The notes under the pieces are model-generated. The model was not told the origin of the DNA and did no database searches. It worked only from the letters and a program-made list of their open reading frames with translations. The position numbers and the translations under genes are program-made. Of a DNA stretch of 64,000 nucleotides, positions 16,754 through 57,809 are shown piece by piece. Source of the DNA: Chitinophagaceae bacterium (GTDB lineage Bacteria > Bacteroidota > Bacteroidia > Chitinophagales > Chitinophagaceae); the NCBI GenBank assembly GCA_004028765.1, contig SAIX01000109.1, forward strand, positions 1 through 64,000, written 5' to 3'. Position 1 is the first letter of the stretch. Every line of letters begins with the position of its first letter.

Positions 16754-18031
16754 TCATTCATACCGCAACGCCACGATGGGGTTCAGGCGGGCTGCTTTCA
16801 TGGCAGGATAAATACCGGCTGCAAGGCCTACTACAGAGCAGATAACAATACCTATGATAACCCACATCCATGGAACCACAAAACCTGTTTTCAGAACGAT
16901 CGAGAAAAGATTCCCGACCAGCACGCCGAGAATGATACCGAATAATGCGCCCAGCAAACTGATGATCATACTTTCGAATAAAAACTGCTGACGCACATTA
17001 CGGCTTTTGCCGCCGATCGCTTTGATGAGCCCCACTTCTTTGGTACGTTCATTTACCGCTACGAGCATGATATTCATGAGACCGATGGCCGCGCCGATCA
17101 ATGTGATCAAACCTATCGCACCTGCCGAGCCTGTGATGCTGCTCAGGAAACCGATAAACAGTTCAGCGAATTTATCGCTTCGCTCGATTACGAAATTGAT
17201 CTCTTCCGTTGGTTCAAGTTTGCGTACGGCGCGGAACACGGACGTAGCTTCATCACCTGCCACATCCAGTTCATTCACGTTTCCCACCATTACACCTACG
17301 AGATACGAGGAGCTTGCATTCTGAAAATTGCGCACATTGGTATAAGAGGTAAGGAGCATATCGTCCTGGCGCATCATGGCGCTGGAGCCTTTGCTTTTCA
17401 ACAAACCAATTACCCGGTAAGGGATATTGCCGATACGGATAATTTTATCAATACATTTTTCCGGTCTGTCGCCAAACAGCTTCGCCGCCACATTACTTCC
17501 CATTAAACAAACATTGCGGCCGCTTTGCACGTCGAGACTGTTGAGGTTACGGCCCACATCAATGGTATAGCCATTTACGAGCAAATAGTTTTCATCCCCA
17601 CCCCATACCGTGATTTGCGGGTTGGTTTTTTTTTCTTCATAATGTATTTCCTGGTTACCCGGACCTCTCCGGTAAATACTCACCAATGCCCCGGGAAAAT
17701 TATAGTTGGCTTTAAAGAATTCTGCCTCTTCCTTCCGGATGGGTTTTCCGAGGTTTGATTTTTTTTCTTTCAGTCCGCGGCGTGTTTTGGTGACATCACC
17801 GTTCCTACCCCCGCCAAACCGCACACGCGATTCTTTAAAACGGATACTGAAAGCATTGGCGCCCATGGAGGAAAAACTTTCTTTCAGGCTCTGGTTCATC
17901 GCTTCAATAGCAGTGATGATGCCGATCAATGCCATGATCCCGAAGGCAATGATGGCGACTGTGATACCTGTGCGCAGTTTATTGCTGCGAACCGTGCGCC
18001 AGGCCAATGAAAGAGAATCGAGGGTCGTCAT
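16754..18031 (-). CDS. ABC transporter permease of the MacB/FtsX type
   Basis: 425 residues with four predicted membrane helices: one near the N-terminus (RTGITVAIIAFGIMALIGII, about 21-40), then a large periplasmic MacB_PCD domain (about 50-270), then the three-helix FtsX block (GAIGLITLIGAAIGLMNIML; SMIISLLGALFGIILGVLVG; VPWMWVIIGIVICSVVGLAA). The cytoplasmic motif NERTKEVGLIKAIGGK is typical. MacB-like transporters use mechanotransmission to move lipoproteins, peptides or toxins across the envelope. No ATPase or membrane-fusion gene is adjacent; the partner must lie elsewhere. It is 87 bases downstream of nuoN's stop on the same strand's far side, with its own start. Confidence 0.9.
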   Translation of the reverse strand: MTTLDSLSLAWRTVRSNKLRTGITVAIIAFGIMALIGIITAIEAMNQSLKESFSSMGANAFSIRFKESRVRFGGGRNGDVTKTRRGLKEKKSNLGKPIRKEEAEFFKANYNFPGALVSIYRRGPGNQEIHYEEKKTNPQITVWGGDENYLLVNGYTIDVGRNLNSLDVQSGRNVCLMGSNVAAKLFGDRPEKCIDKIIRIGNIPYRVIGLLKSKGSSAMMRQDDMLLTSYTNVRNFQNASSSYLVGVMVGNVNELDVAGDEATSVFRAVRKLEPTEEINFVIERSDKFAELFIGFLSSITGSAGAIGLITLIGAAIGLMNIMLVAVNERTKEVGLIKAIGGKSRNVRQQFLFESMIISLLGALFGIILGVLVGNLFSIVLKTGFVVPWMWVIIGIVICSVVGLAAGIYPAMKAARLNPIVALRYE

Positions 18032-24560: not shown

Positions 24561-24665
24561 CGGTTAACTGTTTTTAGTTTTTAGTTTTTCAGCTCCACCA
24601 CGCTCCTCATCGTCCCTTGTGTCACTCACTTGTACTGCAGCAAGGGCTTCAGCAACCGGTGAATT

Positions 24666-24730
24666 GTGAGTGGTGAGTGGTGAGTAATTTTTGAATGCAA
24701 TACCACGCACAACTCACCATTCACCACTCC
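24666..24730. repeat. Family A imperfect inverted repeat between nuoH and nuoI
   Basis: Left arm GTGAGTGGTGAGTGGTGAG (24666-24684) faces CTCACCATTCACCACTCC (24713-24730). The right arm ends directly before the nuoH stop codon. It fills much of the 170-base gap. Confidence 0.8.
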
Positions 24731-25808: not shown

Positions 25809-26927
25809 TTAATCTTTCTTCGTATTAAAATCGGTTGAATGCGCCGGGCCTTCTATGAGGCTCAGGTGTACTTCGGGTTTATTCACTTCACTCACACTAT
25901 GAATATCCATCAGCAGTTTGGGGCTTCGCCCTGCATGCACTGCCGAAAAAGTTTCATGCGGTTTTGTAGTGCCGATCTTTCCAGCATAATGCCCCTGAGA
26001 AATCACAGACTGGCGGCTGATCAGTCTTGGCCCTTCAATCACCCAATCGCTGGTTTTCTTTTTCTCAAAGCGGCAGGTATTACAGATCCAGGCGGTTTTA
26101 CCATCTTCGGTATTTTCCACTTCGCCCCATTCATCTTTTCTCGCGGTTACGCGGAACACTTCATCCCCGCGGTTCCAGAGTGTTACTTTGCCACAGCAGT
26201 TGGGGCAATCGCGGTGTGCATCCATCGGTTTTAAAAACCATACACGGTTTTTGAAACGGAAAGTTTTATCAGTCAGCGCACCTACCGGGCAAACATCGAT
26301 CACGTTACCGATAAAATCATTCTCCAGACTTTTCTCAATATGTGTTGCGATCTCTGCATGGTCGCCACGGTCGAGCACCCCATGTTCCCTTTTCTGTGTA
26401 AGCTGATCGGCCGTGAACACACAACGGTAACAAAGAATACAACGCGTCATGTGCAACTGGATATAAGGGCCGAGATCATGTTTCTTAAAGGTTCTCCGCT
26501 GGAATTCATAACGGGTACCTTCCGCGCCATGCTCATAGCTCAGATCCTGCAGGTGGCATTCACCGGCCTGGTCGCAAATGGGGCAATCGAGCGGGTGATT
26601 CAACAATAAAAATTCAACAACGCCCGCACGTGCATCGAGCACTTTGGGACTGGTAATATTTTTTACTTCCATGCCATCCATCACCGTGGTGCGGCAGGAA
26701 GCCACGAGTTTGGGCATGGGGCGCGGATCTTTTTCAGAGCCCTTGCTCACTTCCACCAGGCAGGTACGGCATTTACCGCCGCTGCCCTGCAGTTTGCTAT
26801 AATAGCACATTGCCGGGGGCGCTACATCGCCGCCGATCTTACGCGCCGCATTCAGGATCGTGGTACCAGCGGGTACTTCGACCGTGATATTATCGATGGT
26901 TACTTTGAATAATGGAGTATCCGACAT
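25809..26927 (-). CDS. nuoG: NADH-quinone oxidoreductase subunit G, short form lacking the molybdopterin domain
   Basis: 372 residues; classical NuoG has 700-900. The Fe-S half is intact: a ferredoxin domain (about 5-90) with CYYSKLQGSGGKCRTC, then the His/Cys ligated cluster site HPLDCPICDQAGEC (about 111-124), then CILCYRCV and CPVGAL for an additional 4Fe-4S cluster. A small cysteine pair domain follows (CPNCCGK, about 242-248, and CNTC near 284). The large molybdopterin-like domain that should follow is absent; instead there is a tail of about 85 residues with no clear family. Short NuoG proteins are known in Bacteroidota, so this is probably normal, not truncated. A four-helix-bundle gene separates it from nuoF. 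Confidence 0.93.
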   Translation of the reverse strand: MSDTPLFKVTIDNITVEVPAGTTILNAARKIGGDVAPPAMCYYSKLQGSGGKCRTCLVEVSKGSEKDPRPMPKLVASCRTTVMDGMEVKNITSPKVLDARAGVVEFLLLNHPLDCPICDQAGECHLQDLSYEHGAEGTRYEFQRRTFKKHDLGPYIQLHMTRCILCYRCVFTADQLTQKREHGVLDRGDHAEIATHIEKSLENDFIGNVIDVCPVGALTDKTFRFKNRVWFLKPMDAHRDCPNCCGKVTLWNRGDEVFRVTARKDEWGEVENTEDGKTAWICNTCRFEKKKTSDWVIEGPRLISRQSVISQGHYAGKIGTTKPHETFSAVHAGRSPKLLMDIHSVSEVNKPEVHLSLIEGPAHSTDFNTKKD

Positions 26928-26964
26928 AAGTCAAAATTCAAAATTAAAAAGTCAAAATTCAAAA
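26928..26964. repeat. Family B repeat abutting the stop of the four-helix-bundle gene
   Basis: Contains GTCAAAATTCAAAA twice (26930-26943 and 26951-26964), in direct repeat. It starts right after the nuoG start codon and ends 2 bases before the stop codon of the four-helix-bundle gene. Confidence 0.85.
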
Positions 26965-26966
26965 CA

Positions 26967-27350
26967 CTACTTTGCCTTCACAATGATCGAAGCGATGATT
27001 TTTGAAAGTTCATCAGCTTCTTGAATCAATTCATGCATTTTATCTTTCGAAATATCCTGTGTATCCCTGATGAGACAAAGCCAGTATTTCGTTTCATTGG
27101 CTGATTTAAGCGCGATTGCCAGGAAATTTATCCAGTCTTTTTTTGAACTTCCTGCTTTTCCTTCAACAAGATTCGCTCCAATGGAAGTTGCACTTCTTAT
27201 CAACTGATCAAATAAAGAACTATATACTTTCTCAACCTTACTGTTCCCGATAAAACCGATCACATCCTTCGCAAAAAAATAAGCCCGGTGCCTGATGTTA
27301 TATGGTTTCCCTTCTTCGCTCAATTCAAAACTGTCAAATTCATCATTCAT
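26967..27350 (-). CDS. Four-helix-bundle protein (S23/IVP, bAvd-like family) inside the nuo operon
   Basis: 127 residues, the full length of the 23S rRNA intervening-sequence/four-helix-bundle family. Family features are YFFAKDVIGFIGN, SLFDQLIRSATSIGANLVEGKAGSS (the usual R-A-x-S-I-xx-N-xx-EG signature near 50-72), DWINFLAIALKSANETKYWL and a final helix LIQEADELSKIIASIIVK. The family includes proteins encoded in 23S rRNA intervening sequences and Avd of diversity-generating retroelements, but no reverse transcriptase or variable repeat is present here. It replaces the normal nuoG-nuoF junction. It is exactly bounded on both sides by TCAAAA/TTTTGA-rich repeats, which suggests arrival as a small mobile cassette. 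Its role in this operon is unknown. Confidence 0.9.
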   Translation of the reverse strand: MNDEFDSFELSEEGKPYNIRHRAYFFAKDVIGFIGNSKVEKVYSSLFDQLIRSATSIGANLVEGKAGSSKKDWINFLAIALKSANETKYWLCLIRDTQDISKDKMHELIQEADELSKIIASIIVKAK

Positions 27351-27382
27351 TTTTTGACTTTTGAATTTAAACTTTTGAATTT
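27350..27382. repeat. Family B repeat abutting the start of the four-helix-bundle gene
   Basis: TTTTTTGACTTTTGAATTT, then ACTTTTGAATTT. It is inverted relative to 26928-26964. It begins at the start codon of the four-helix-bundle gene and ends 4 bases before the nuoF stop. Confidence 0.85.
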
Positions 27383-27386
27383 CTGC

Positions 27387-28745
27387 CTACCCCGCTACCG
27401 GCACATGAATCGGGTCTGCATAATGTGCCAAACCGTAATTTCTTTCCTGTGCCTCTTTCGCGTTTGTTACATGCCATTCAAATTCATCCCTGAAATGACG
27501 GATGGCTGCAGCAACCGGCCAGGCAGCGGCGTCACCTAAAGGACAAATCGTATTCCCTTCAATTTTTCGCTGTATATCCCATAACAGGTCGATATCACTC
27601 AACTTACCTTCTCCCTTATCAAGCCTGTATAATAATTTTTCCATCCATCCTGTTCCTTCACGGCAGGGGGAACATTGTCCGCAACTTTCGTGGCGGTAAA
27701 AACGTGCGAGGGTATAAGTGTTTTTAACAATACACTGGTCTTCATCAAACACAATAAAACCACCCGAACCCATCATGGAGCCTGTGGCAAAACCACCATC
27801 GCTCAAACTCTCATAGTTCATGTAACGGGTTTCCCCTTTGGCAGTCTTTAATAAAAGATTGGCGGGGAGAATGGGCACTGATGAACCACCCGGTATACAG
27901 GCTTTCAGTTTTTTGCCATTGGCGATACCTCCGCAGTATTCATCGCTGTAAATAAATTCTTCCACCGAAATGGTCATGTCAATTTCATACACACCCGGTT
28001 TATTGATATTACCGCAGGCAGAAATCAGTTTGGTTCCTGTTGATTTGCCCACACCGATCTTTGCATATTCTTCACCACCCATATTGATGATCGGAACTAC
28101 AGCTGCGAGGGTTTCCACATTGTTCACTACGGTTGGCCGCTGCCATACACCCTGTATCGCCGGGAATGGAGGTTTGATACGCGGGTTACCGCGTTTGCCT
28201 TCGAGTGATTCGATAAGCGCGGTTTCTTCTCCGCAGATATAGGCACCGGCGCCGCGTTGTACATAGATCTCGCAATCAAACCCACTGCCTAAAATATTTT
28301 TGCCAAGAAAGCCATTGTTTTTTGCTTCGGTAATGGCCTGTTCCAGGATATCAACGATCCAGGCATATTCCCCGCGGATATAGATATAGGTAGCGTTACT
28401 GCCCAATGCAAAGGATGAAACGATCAATCCTTCGATCAGCAAGTGCGGGATAAATTCCATCAGGTAACGGTCTTTAAAAGTACCCGGCTCACTTTCATCT
28501 GCATTGCAAACGAGGTGACGCGGCACTCCTTCCGGCTTGGCAATAAAACTCCATTTCATACCCGCAGGGAAACCTGCACCGCCACGGCCCCGCAGTCCGC
28601 TTTTCTTCACTTCTTCCACAATGGCTTCGGGGCTCATTGTTTTCAATGCTTTCTCCACACTGCGGTAACCGCCTTCGCGGCGGTAGGTATCAAAATATCG
28701 GATACCTTCTACATGTGCTTTCTCTAATAATAATTTTACACCCAT
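27387..28745 (-). CDS. nuoF: NADH-quinone oxidoreductase subunit F (NADH-binding)
   Basis: 452 residues. NuoF binds NADH and FMN and holds cluster N3. The FMN/NADH signatures GLRGRGGAGFPAGMKW (about 50-65) and the glycine-rich GAGAYICGEETALIESLEG (about 166-184) are present. The cluster ligands are SCGQCSPCREGTGW (about 354-367) and the later CPLG near 407. It follows a small membrane ORF (28792-28971) downstream of nuoE and precedes the four-helix-bundle gene. Confidence 0.97.
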   Translation of the reverse strand: MGVKLLLEKAHVEGIRYFDTYRREGGYRSVEKALKTMSPEAIVEEVKKSGLRGRGGAGFPAGMKWSFIAKPEGVPRHLVCNADESEPGTFKDRYLMEFIPHLLIEGLIVSSFALGSNATYIYIRGEYAWIVDILEQAITEAKNNGFLGKNILGSGFDCEIYVQRGAGAYICGEETALIESLEGKRGNPRIKPPFPAIQGVWQRPTVVNNVETLAAVVPIINMGGEEYAKIGVGKSTGTKLISACGNINKPGVYEIDMTISVEEFIYSDEYCGGIANGKKLKACIPGGSSVPILPANLLLKTAKGETRYMNYESLSDGGFATGSMMGSGGFIVFDEDQCIVKNTYTLARFYRHESCGQCSPCREGTGWMEKLLYRLDKGEGKLSDIDLLWDIQRKIEGNTICPLGDAAAWPVAAAIRHFRDEFEWHVTNAKEAQERNYGLAHYADPIHVPVAG

Positions 28746-28974: not shown

Positions 28975-29484
28975 TTAGTTATTTGCTGCTGCGTTTTTTC
29001 TGCACTCGTCTATGATCGAATCCACTTTATCTTTTGTCAGGTGCTCGCGATAATGCTTCCCTAACTGCATCATCGGCGCATAGCCACAGGCACCGAGGCA
29101 TTCCACCGTTTTCAGTGTAAACAACCCGTCTGCAGTGGTTTCGCCGGGTTTGATGCCCAGCTTCTCTTTGATATAAGCCACAATATCATCGCTGCCGCGT
29201 AACATGCAGGGGCCTGTCTGGCAAACTTCAAACATGTATTTTCCAACCGGTTTCAGGTTGTACATGCTGTAAAAAGTAGCCACTTCATATACTTCTATCG
29301 GCGTGATGTTCAGCAGTTCAGCTACATAGTCCATTGTTTCGTTGCTTAACCATCCGCCAAATGAATCCTGCGCCAGGTGCAGTACCGGCAAGAGCGCACT
29401 TTTTTGTTTCCCTTCCGGGTAACGTGCCACCAACCGGTTAAACTCGGCCTGTTGTGTTTCGTTAAACTTCACCATACTGTTCAA
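28975..29484 (-). CDS. nuoE: NADH-quinone oxidoreductase subunit E
   Basis: 169 residues, thioredoxin-like fold with the N1a 2Fe-2S cluster. The four ligands are Cys88, Cys93, Cys129 and Cys133 (CQTGPC and CLGAC). The helical N-terminal part has LLPVLHLAQDSFGGWLS. NuoE works with NuoF in the NADH dehydrogenase module. A downstream ATG (29475, MVKFNE) is an alternative start. A strong inverted repeat (29480-29550) fills the whole gap to nuoD. Confidence 0.96.
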   Translation of the reverse strand: MNSMVKFNETQQAEFNRLVARYPEGKQKSALLPVLHLAQDSFGGWLSNETMDYVAELLNITPIEVYEVATFYSMYNLKPVGKYMFEVCQTGPCMLRGSDDIVAYIKEKLGIKPGETTADGLFTLKTVECLGACGYAPMMQLGKHYREHLTKDKVDSIIDECRKNAAANN

Positions 29485-29550
29485 AATTCAAGAGTCAAAA
29501 TGCAAAAGTCAAAACCCATTTTTAATTTTTGACTTTTGCATTTTTAATTT
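29480..29550. repeat. Family B inverted repeat filling the nuoD-nuoE gap, perfect 18-bp arms
   Basis: Arms 29497-29514 and 29527-29544 are exact reverse complements (right arm TTTTGACTTTTGCATTTT), with a 12-base spacer. The same 18-mer is found exactly at 57777-57794. The repeat reaches to 1 base before the nuoD stop codon. Confidence 0.92.
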
Positions 29551-32134: not shown

Positions 32135-32170
32135 AGAATTAAGAATTAATAATTATGAATTAAGGATTAA
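32135..32170. repeat. Family D AT-rich word between nuoA and nuoB
   Basis: AGAATTAAGAATTAATAATT followed by ATGAATTAAGGATTA. It shares the TTAAGAAT core with the repeat at 23954-23988. It lies 4 bases upstream of the nuoB start codon. Confidence 0.55.
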
Positions 32171-32251
32171 AGATGCTACCTGGATTTAACAACGGGCGGG
32201 GGTTTAAGTTCGGCCGCGGTTGTTTATGCACGGGTTTTCATCTTTACGATA

Positions 32252-36440: not shown

Positions 36441-36480
36441 GAATTTTTACTTTTGAATTTTTACTTTTGAATTTTGAACC
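36441..36480. repeat. Family B direct repeat before hisS
   Basis: AATTTTTACTTTTG occurs twice, followed by AATTTTGAACC. It fills the gap between the phosphatase stop and hisS. Confidence 0.75.
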
Positions 36481-57773: not shown

Positions 57774-57809
57774 GATTTTGACTTTTGCATTTTGACTTTT
57801 TATTTGAAC
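57774..57809. repeat. Family B repeat between sod and osmC
   Basis: TTTTGACTTTTGCATTTT at 57777-57794 is identical to the arm at 29527-29544. It is followed by TGACTTTTTATTTGAAC and reaches the osmC start codon. Confidence 0.85.

Follow-up and report, generated by a model that had tools for sequence, protein, structure and literature searches.

Why does a gene for a small four-helix-bundle protein of the S23 family lie between nuoF and nuoG in a Chitinophagaceae bacterium, with inverted copies of one repeat pressed against its two ends? The locus belongs to a stretch of 64,000 nucleotides (contig SAIX01000109.1 of assembly GCA_004028765.1), which we call the window. An initial annotation, made from sequence alone, had inferred that the gene and its flanks may form a small mobile cassette, and the analysis presented here supports that inference and extends it far beyond the window. 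In the reading that we favour, to which we would assign a probability of roughly 0.72, the gene with its arms is a single representative of a family of small, selfish, mobile cassettes that end in heptamer arrays and have non-autonomous derivatives. The anatomy of the cassette, its recurrence in many lineages, empty sites, one split open reading frame, gene-less copies and the joint divergence of protein and arm words are shown below.

Results

One gene between two inverted heptamer arrays

The S23 gene occupies positions 26967 to 27350 on the minus strand and encodes 127 aa. Profile searches match its product to TIGR02436 (E 7.3e-27) and PF05635 (E 1.1e-23), and the solved structures 2rld and 2gsc are relatives of the S23 family by match to profile A1, a family alignment. 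The flanking genes, which we take to be nuoF (27387 to 28745, upstream) and nuoG (25809 to 26927, downstream), were named from a reading of the sequence, and tblastn finds the nuoF copies of relatives; all three genes are on the minus strand in the order nuoF, S23 gene, nuoG. The 5'-side arm, a heptamer array at 27351 to 27382, directly abuts the S23 start codon (0 bp) and lies 4 bp from the nuoF stop codon, and the 3'-side arm, an inverted heptamer array at 26930 to 26964 (lag-7 score 15), lies 2 bp away from both the S23 stop codon and the start codon of nuoG. Both arms are built of TTTTGAN-type words in mutually inverted orientation, with an inverted-repeat score of 18.5; under the same scoring, with nearly the same flanks, a score of 18 was reached by 4 of 429 control ORFs. 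The initial annotation had placed the gene between nuoF and nuoG with inverted repeats 0–2 bases from its start and stop codons, and this held, coordinates included; it had given no strand.

No complete ORF of at least 80 aa besides the S23 gene lies between the arms, so that S23 is the sole gene of the cassette and there is no transposase inside it; nuclease and reverse transcriptase (RT) genes are likewise absent from it. Folded as RNA, the whole window element is not unusually stable (z -0.36).

A feature absent from the initial annotation is that the repeat words form arrays with a 7-bp period. Taking all words together, eight lag-7 arrays in the window score at least 10, against none in five of five Markov resamples. 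Lags 4, 5, 8, 10, 12 and 13 give no array, lag 6 gives five, lag 9 two, lags 11 and 15 one each, and lag 14, a harmonic of 7, gives seven. Three gene-less sites of the same words had been listed before, and all exist: the site between nuoE and nuoD (29481 to 29548) is a hairpin with both arms and an 18-bp stem (RNA fold of 29478-29550, z -4.99), and those at 36441 to 36480 (word search and lag-7 list) and 57774 to 57809 (word search; too irregular for the lag-7 list) are single arms. Other gene-less arrays in the window use other words, namely GGTGAGT at 24659 to 24685, which is on the lag-7 list and has an inverted partner on its right (RNA fold of 24640-24720, z only -1.77), and AATTAAG at 32135 to 32174, whose best match among the arms of resident S23 genes is L075, at 0.53. 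The TCAAAA word that had been taken as the signature of the element must be replaced in that role by the inverted heptamer array itself, the words of which vary among cassettes.

Inverted arms frame S23 genes in many lineages

In a scan of public genomes we collected 80 named S23 loci, in 79 of which 82 S23 ORFs were found; 81 of these (78 loci) were scored by the best ungapped match between the 250 bp upstream and the reverse complement of the 250 bp downstream. Controls were 429 other ORFs on the same contigs. A score of at least 12 was reached by 72 of the 81 S23 ORFs but only 30 of the 429 controls, a score of at least 16 by 59 versus 8, and a score of at least 20 by 46 versus 3; we give the thresholds as a series, the cut-off of 12 having been adopted after the results were seen. 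The titles of arm-positive records name Bacteroidetes, Brocadiaceae, Pirellulaceae, Cyanobacteria, Verrucomicrobia, Clostridia and Oscillospiraceae, as well as Sulfuricurvum, Chitinispirillaceae, Propionigenium, Thermodesulfovibrionia, Acidobacteria and Bdellovibrio, many of the records being metagenome bins.

The same cut-off was met by 19 of 30 genes of a second S23 subfamily (A3), for which there were only three controls, and by 51 of 67 genes of order-level relatives including the source genome (98 matches listed and 71 loci profiled, with three weak ones, L036-L038, unfound and two of 69 hits duplicates, leaving 67). Arms were present on all 12 plasmid copies fetched (scores 14.5-34.5), which had been chosen for spread from 52 rows and include two that are near-identical. 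Neither relatives nor plasmids had controls of their own, and both are read against the 429 controls of the named loci. An inverted repeat scoring at least 12 was lacking in 9/81 named, 16/67 relatives' and 11/30 second-subfamily genes.

In the source genome a protein search detects 8 S23 genes and the Pfam profile 11; the flanks of all 11 are inverted (scores 13.0-30.0), with arm words as different as AATTAAG, AGTTAAA, GTTCATG, TCGTGAA and GGTCTTT. The closest other resident protein is only 38% identical to that of the window; with no two similar copies present, no recent jump is visible in this genome. The expectation that other four-helix-bundle genes bear such flanks is supported by the resident, named and plasmid counts alike, and the finding that would have sunk the cassette idea, repeats with no tie to this gene family elsewhere, was not obtained.

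Arm words diverge together with the protein

The 7-bp period is a property of the arms in both subfamilies. Across 69 arms of the first (A2), identity is 0.76 at lag 7 and 0.79 at lag 14, with no other tested lag above 0.39; across 16 arms of the second (A3) the values are 0.52 and 0.59, with the others at 0.37 or less. Phase alignment of 72 A2 arms gives the skeleton NNN-A-[AG]-T-[TG] (NNN-A-R-T-K), with 3.62 bits against at most 0.54 in shuffled arms, and 19 phase-aligned A3 arms have a weaker A-G core of 2.02 bits against at most 0.89.

Over 130 cassettes, protein distance and arm-word distance are correlated (Mantel r 0.48), as they still are once locus GC and arm composition have been removed (partial 0.43). 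The correlation is 0.22 (partial 0.16) within relatives alone and 0.50 (partial 0.32) within the first subfamily, and in none of these tests did any of 999 permutations reach as high a value. Arm class equals protein class in 36 of 51 relatives' cassettes (Fisher p 0.006), both subfamilies being present in mixed genomes. What this correlation means can only be inferred: it may be that S23 recognizes its arms, but plain co-inheritance of gene and arms would also fit.

Empty sites, a split reading frame and lost target DNA

Of 60 genomes, 47 have a NuoG match, and the 30 loci returned gave the window and 27 relatives with a readable nuoF-nuoG junction; two loci (L065, L067) on contigs without nuoF are uncounted, and the label 'empty_?' that both bear in the tree is a default and not a result. 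At 22 of the 27 same-genus junctions there is neither gene nor heptamer array, only a spacer of 13-63 bp. Had all relatives carried the gene without flanks the cassette idea would have failed, and this is not so; the empty site that it called for is found, yet it is not base-exact, because the native spacer has been replaced.

The remaining junctions are occupied in different ways. Three (G013, G027, G035) hold gene-less TTTTGAN arrays, one (G033) holds a hairpin of a different word (CACGCAAAGGCGCAAAG), and one (G031; L040 798-1500) holds a nucleotidyltransferase (PF01909) and a HEPN (PF05168) gene, around which no heptamer arms were seen. The junction hairpin of L041/G033 resembles the arms, made of an 8-9-bp word, of the GxxExxY type described below. 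In a tree of nuoF and nuoG, G000 is the tip that bears the copy with the gene; the gene is missing from G036 and G033, which form the sister clade, and from G010, the branch after that. The gene-less arrays of G027 and G035 and that of G013 are on separate branches far from G000; G013 has no S23 gene, and G027 and G035 have one each. As different inserts fall on separate branches, the junction has been struck several times, and it is possible that it is an insertion hot spot. The gene itself is patchy in the genus, with at least one S23 gene in 9 of 36 other genomes, several of which are incomplete.

Beyond this junction, four loci have empty sites in relatives. An S23 cassette between cas10 and cmr3 in Picosynechococcus 7003 is absent in 7002; one between cas2 and cas1 in Nostoc TCL26-01 and Anabaena 7122 is absent in Nostoc UHCC 0870 and N. 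edaphicum; one at a pair of HlyD-type adaptor and ABC transporter genes in Calothrix 7716 is missing from two Calothrix NIES-4105 plasmids; and in Nostoc C057 a cassette splits the ORF of a DNA cytosine methyltransferase on plasmid p057_G (L350), while the ORF runs uninterrupted on p057_N (L347), another plasmid of this strain; the split form is also present on plasmids from two further strains (L348, L338). The uninterrupted ORF encodes 252 aa and covers positions 3-168 of the 324 of the PF00145 profile; spanning only the first half, it may have been shortened or decayed before the insertion.

Where the edges can be aligned, insertion has removed target bases, which corrects the earlier expectation of an exact empty site. 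At the methyltransferase, homology to L347 ends at base 1172 and restarts at 1501, so that 328 bp of the target were lost; arm sequence has taken the place of about 62 bp on the cas1 side of the cas2-cas1 site; and the cas10-cmr3 pair differs in its 12-bp spacer and in the end of cas10. The spacers of the HlyD-ABC pair and of nuoF-nuoG cannot be aligned base by base. No target-site duplication was seen at the methyltransferase, cas2-cas1 or cas10-cmr3 junctions.

UHCC 0870 has a copy of the L338 cassette, at 88% identity, surrounded by different genes (L349), and the L338 arms alone recur in Nostoc plasmids at up to 12 places per record; in one case (H114) the arm pair spans only 235 bp, which is too short for an S23 gene. 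In L349 a second repeat, GCGTTAGCGGAGCGGGACGTTAGTCC, is present in both arms in inverted orientation (1420-1545 and 1880-2040). The ratio dN/dS of S23 is 0.07-0.10 for L338, L348 and L350 versus L349 and 0.23 for L337 versus L343, and S23 is under purifying selection in these two comparisons of more diverged pairs; near-identical pairs gave 0.40 and 0.53, with too few changes to weigh. The S23 genes at cas2-cas1 (L337) and cas10-cmr3 (L340) carry inverted arms, and the L337 cassette is antisense to both cas2 and cas1.

Gene-less arrays share the vocabulary of resident S23 genes

We sampled 464 kb of the source genome (the window plus 20 stretches) and found 25 noncoding arrays away from S23, one of which proved to be beside an S23 gene across a stretch boundary, leaving 24 for a vocabulary test; the two arms of one hairpin may have been counted as two arrays. 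An inverted partner within 350 bp is present for 11 of the 25, against 1 of 125 random draws. Measured against resident S23 arms (11 genes), the 24 arrays have a mean word match of 0.65; 200 random sets drawn from 44 S23 genes of other genomes gave a mean of 0.44 and a best value of 0.64. In one tally 17 of the 24 arrays reach a match of 50% or more, and in another 8 of the 24 lack a half-or-more match to any single resident S23 gene; two of the 24 match none. The earlier suggestion that gene-less repeats are remnants or non-autonomous relatives is thus supported by the shared vocabulary, if not for those last two.

There are more gene-less arrays than S23 genes in these 464 kb. With the score cut-off at 13, 14 noncoding arrays were counted in a 400-kb sample of the source genome, including one next to an S23 gene. 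Other genomes of the genus yielded two arrays in 200 kb (G010, no S23 gene), none in 200 kb (G017, one S23 gene) and none in 100 kb each (G034 and G009, no S23 genes). Two genomes from outside the family, which have 5-6 S23 genes, yielded 0 and 1 arrays per 100 kb, the one being at a contig end, so the spread of gene-less copies is not universal. Folded as RNA, two of three gene-less hairpins are strongly stable (z -4.99 and -6.51) and the third is less so (-1.77).

Two further observations concern single stretches of this genome. In L193 (17782-17816) the word of one array drifts along its length from AGTTAAA to AGTTAGG, AGTCTGG and AGTTTGG, which looks as though words might evolve through duplication and mutation. 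L194 (10227-10255 and 10381-10409) and L200 (7134-7161 and 7294-7336) have gene-less inverted pairs of an 8-bp repeat of the GGTTTATT type, about 125-130 bp apart.

Candidate partners and other cargo

An RT as obligate partner of S23 was rejected: RT genes were detected in 10 of 60 genomes and S23 genes in 30. The single RT match of the source genome is on contig C12 and the window on C109, so that the adjacent RT expected of the Avd protein of a diversity-generating retroelement (DGR) is missing. At one place (G051:C24, L028) two S23 genes lie beside an RT gene, with arm scores of 10.5 and 11.0, below 12.

A Y1 (RAYT) transposase as regular partner was also rejected, as, of 19 Y1 loci, a single one lies between heptamer arms and one more has a heptamer hairpin on one side (L287 was left out of this test). 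Y1 genes occur in 22 of 60 genomes, with the one match of the source genome on contig C3; G033 has six S23 genes and no Y1 match. Ten of the 19 Y1 loci do score at least 12, mostly through REP-like palindromes, and inverted repeats per se are therefore not specific to S23. The framed Y1 gene is in L290 (G056:C2:177000-179800; score 28.5), and L283 (G036:C147) has a Y1 gene with a heptamer hairpin upstream.

There is little support for S23 as a phage or defence gene: it is in no PHROG family (2 proteins) and no PADLOC family (3 proteins), and tblastn with one query matched two phage records.

GxxExxY genes (PF13366) as a second cargo of heptamer arms were rejected too. Their flanks have inverted repeats scoring at least 12 in 15 of 29 cases (12 of 27 with tighter flanks; L268 was left out), with a weak period of 8-9 (0.39, 0.35) and not 7 (0.27), which makes them a separate lead from S23 cassettes. 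Arms of 8-9-bp words such as CGCAAAGR are seen in L263, L276, L255, L259, L270, L148 and L154, the last two being high-scoring control ORFs that encode cassette-like GxxExxY/PF13366 proteins.

Discussion

The layout established here is a heptamer array, one S23 gene and an inverted heptamer array. In the model that we propose, such a cassette would insert into intergenic sites, and at times into a gene, taking the place of some target DNA, and would leave or spawn gene-less derivatives consisting of two arms around a short loop or of a single arm. An S23 oligomer is predicted to bind the heptamer units of its own arms, as RNA or as single-stranded or hairpin DNA, for which there are no binding data, and the paired arms, a stem in RNA or single-stranded DNA, would be the mobile form. 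To our knowledge no catalysis by an S23 four-helix bundle has been described; the catalytic step may be borrowed from the host or from a trans-acting enzyme, with host enzymes completing the insertion. That the cassette holds no enzyme and that target sites have deletions both argue against ordinary transposition. Several results also weigh against the model: some S23 genes have no inverted repeat of at least 12, inverted repeats frame Y1 genes too, the whole window element is not an especially stable RNA, arrays are present in genomes where S23 is scarce or was not detected (two in 200 kb of G010, and at the junction of G013, both without an S23 gene) and scarce in two S23-bearing genomes of other families, some gene-less arrays lack a resident match, no recent jump is visible here, arm and protein class agree only in part, and the split methyltransferase ORF may have been decayed beforehand.

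Relation to known elements

The closest known system is the 23S rRNA intervening sequence (IVS). The IVS of Coxiella burnetii is a selfish element that encodes S23p and is excised by RNase III; upstream of its S23p gene there are heptameric repeats in variable number, older proposals of IVS mobility have been recounted, and the S23 protein of Xanthomonas is a toroidal homopentamer (PMC4990558). Like an IVS, the window cassette has a gene of this family between inverted ends that form a stem, and terminal sequences able to pair are present both here (18.5) and at the 72 of 81 named loci. It differs in that it lies in an intergenic site of an operon and not in rRNA, in that its arms vary by cassette, and in that no RNA excision has been shown. 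The window gene is outside the 23S rRNA gene, and a 16-base 23S motif, taken from general knowledge, matched none of the 278 loci examined. We consider it likely, as part of the main reading, that S23 cassettes and 23S rRNA intervening sequences are relatives, agreeing in gene and inverted ends though not in rRNA location; on this view the latter would be elements of this same type that became trapped in helices of rRNA.

The family is also reported to be homologous, through PF05635, to the Avd proteins of DGRs (PMC10053308); the initial annotation had named both 23S intervening sequences and DGRs as places where it is found. The difference is that the window cassette has no RT partner and that the single RT-adjacent S23 pair is below the arm threshold.

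REP/REPIN sequences and their RAYT genes comprise one protein gene framed by repeats and many gene-less copies of the repeats. S23 cassettes likewise have one framed gene and gene-less repeat copies, and the latter share the repeat of the gene-bearing copy as in REP systems, but the repeats are heptamer arrays rather than REP hairpins, and the gene framed in the window is PF05635 and not Y1. MITEs and NEMIS-type elements are short gene-less inverted-repeat insertions between genes that share their ends with a larger gene-bearing element. The gene-less S23 derivatives resemble them as short intergenic inverted repeats with the ends of a gene-bearing cassette; however, unlike MITEs and insertion sequences, S23 cassettes have no transposase parent and no target duplication was seen.

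Heptamer repeats have been reported before, as TAACTGA in Beggiatoaceae and cyanobacteria, where no transfer mechanism was evident (PMC4679880), as GGGAATC in Xanthomonas and GGGGA(T/C)T in Nostoc (PMC4692102), and as heptanucleotide families in Geobacter metallireducens (PMC2700814). These too are tandem intergenic 7-mers, sometimes in inverted pairs, but the roles proposed for them were translational, quadruplex-related or global regulatory. Read on its complementary strand, the arm of one of our Nostocales cassettes (L180) gives the TAACTGA word. By term search 'helix bundle' is absent from all three papers and 'S23' from PMC2700814, and in the open-access literature that we searched (top-ranked results, no preprints) S23 genes outside rRNA joined to inverted heptamer arms were not found.

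It is tempting to go further and regard these cassettes as a separate class of mobile element, whose sole protein would be a four-helix-bundle oligomer without catalytic activity, able to read a heptamer code of a fixed four-base core and three variable bases per unit, and which would move as paired-arm RNA or single-stranded DNA with the help of host enzymes. Most bacterial heptamer repeats, including the TAACTGA repeats of cyanobacteria and Beggiatoa, would then be gene-less offspring, and a parallel class with a GxxExxY nuclease-fold gene would use arms of 8-9-bp repeats. We lean against this bolder version, though it has a real chance.

Alternative explanations

The main rival puts the heptamer arrays first: slippage-prone tandem repeats would spread by themselves, and S23 would be a passenger moved by homologous recombination. 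In its favour are the gene-less arrays at nuoF-nuoG in three genomes, on two branches away from G000, the stepwise drift of words in the L193 array at 17782, and the excess of gene-less arrays over S23 genes in the 464 kb. Against it, matched inverted arms frame S23 far more than other genes, the skeleton differs by protein subfamily and arm distance tracks protein distance, arrays are few in the sampled same-genus genomes with 0-1 S23 genes, and neutral slippage explains neither the inverted pairing nor the conserved A-R-T-K core. We regard this rival as unlikely.

There is much less room for the proposal that nothing moves and that S23 is a resident gene with a regulatory RNA hairpin, through which RNase III or S23 itself would control expression of S23 or of the operon. 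The strong RNA stability of two of the three gene-less hairpins (z -4.99 and -6.51, the third at -1.77) speaks for it, as does the cutting by RNase III of 23S rRNA intervening sequences that carry the same gene (PMC4990558). Against it stand the 22 of 27 relatives without the cassette, the split methyltransferase ORF, the antisense orientation of L337 to cas2 and cas1, and the lack of special RNA stability in the whole window element.

It is also improbable that S23 is a stand-alone Avd moved by a DGR reverse transcriptase: the homology of PF05635 and Avd (PMC10053308) and the two S23 genes beside an RT in G051:C24 suggest it, but RTs occur in 10/60 genomes against 30/60 for S23, that RT-adjacent pair scores below 12, and the RT of the source genome is off the window contig. 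REP-like mobilization of the arrays by a host RAYT-type Y1 transposase is likewise improbable, since, despite Y1 genes in 22/60 genomes including the source, the framed L290 and the upstream hairpin of L283, 17 of 19 Y1 loci have no heptamer array, several have REP-like palindromes instead, and G033 has six S23 genes without any Y1.

Implications

The legend of a published analysis of CRISPR adaptation associations contains a '23S rRNA IVP' entry (PMC10910872), which S23 cassettes in cas operons might explain; for the annotation of S23 genes found there, a hitchhiking mobile cassette is a simpler reading. More broadly, bacterial heptamer repeats, each of which had been given its own local explanation, are here tied to one gene family, and the matched inverted pairs that accompany S23 in many lineages raise a testable question, namely whether S23 proteins bind and spread heptamer repeats. 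The cassette family offers a common origin for the heptamer repeats of many bacterial genomes and, if this is true, the intervening sequences of 23S rRNA would gain a wider family.
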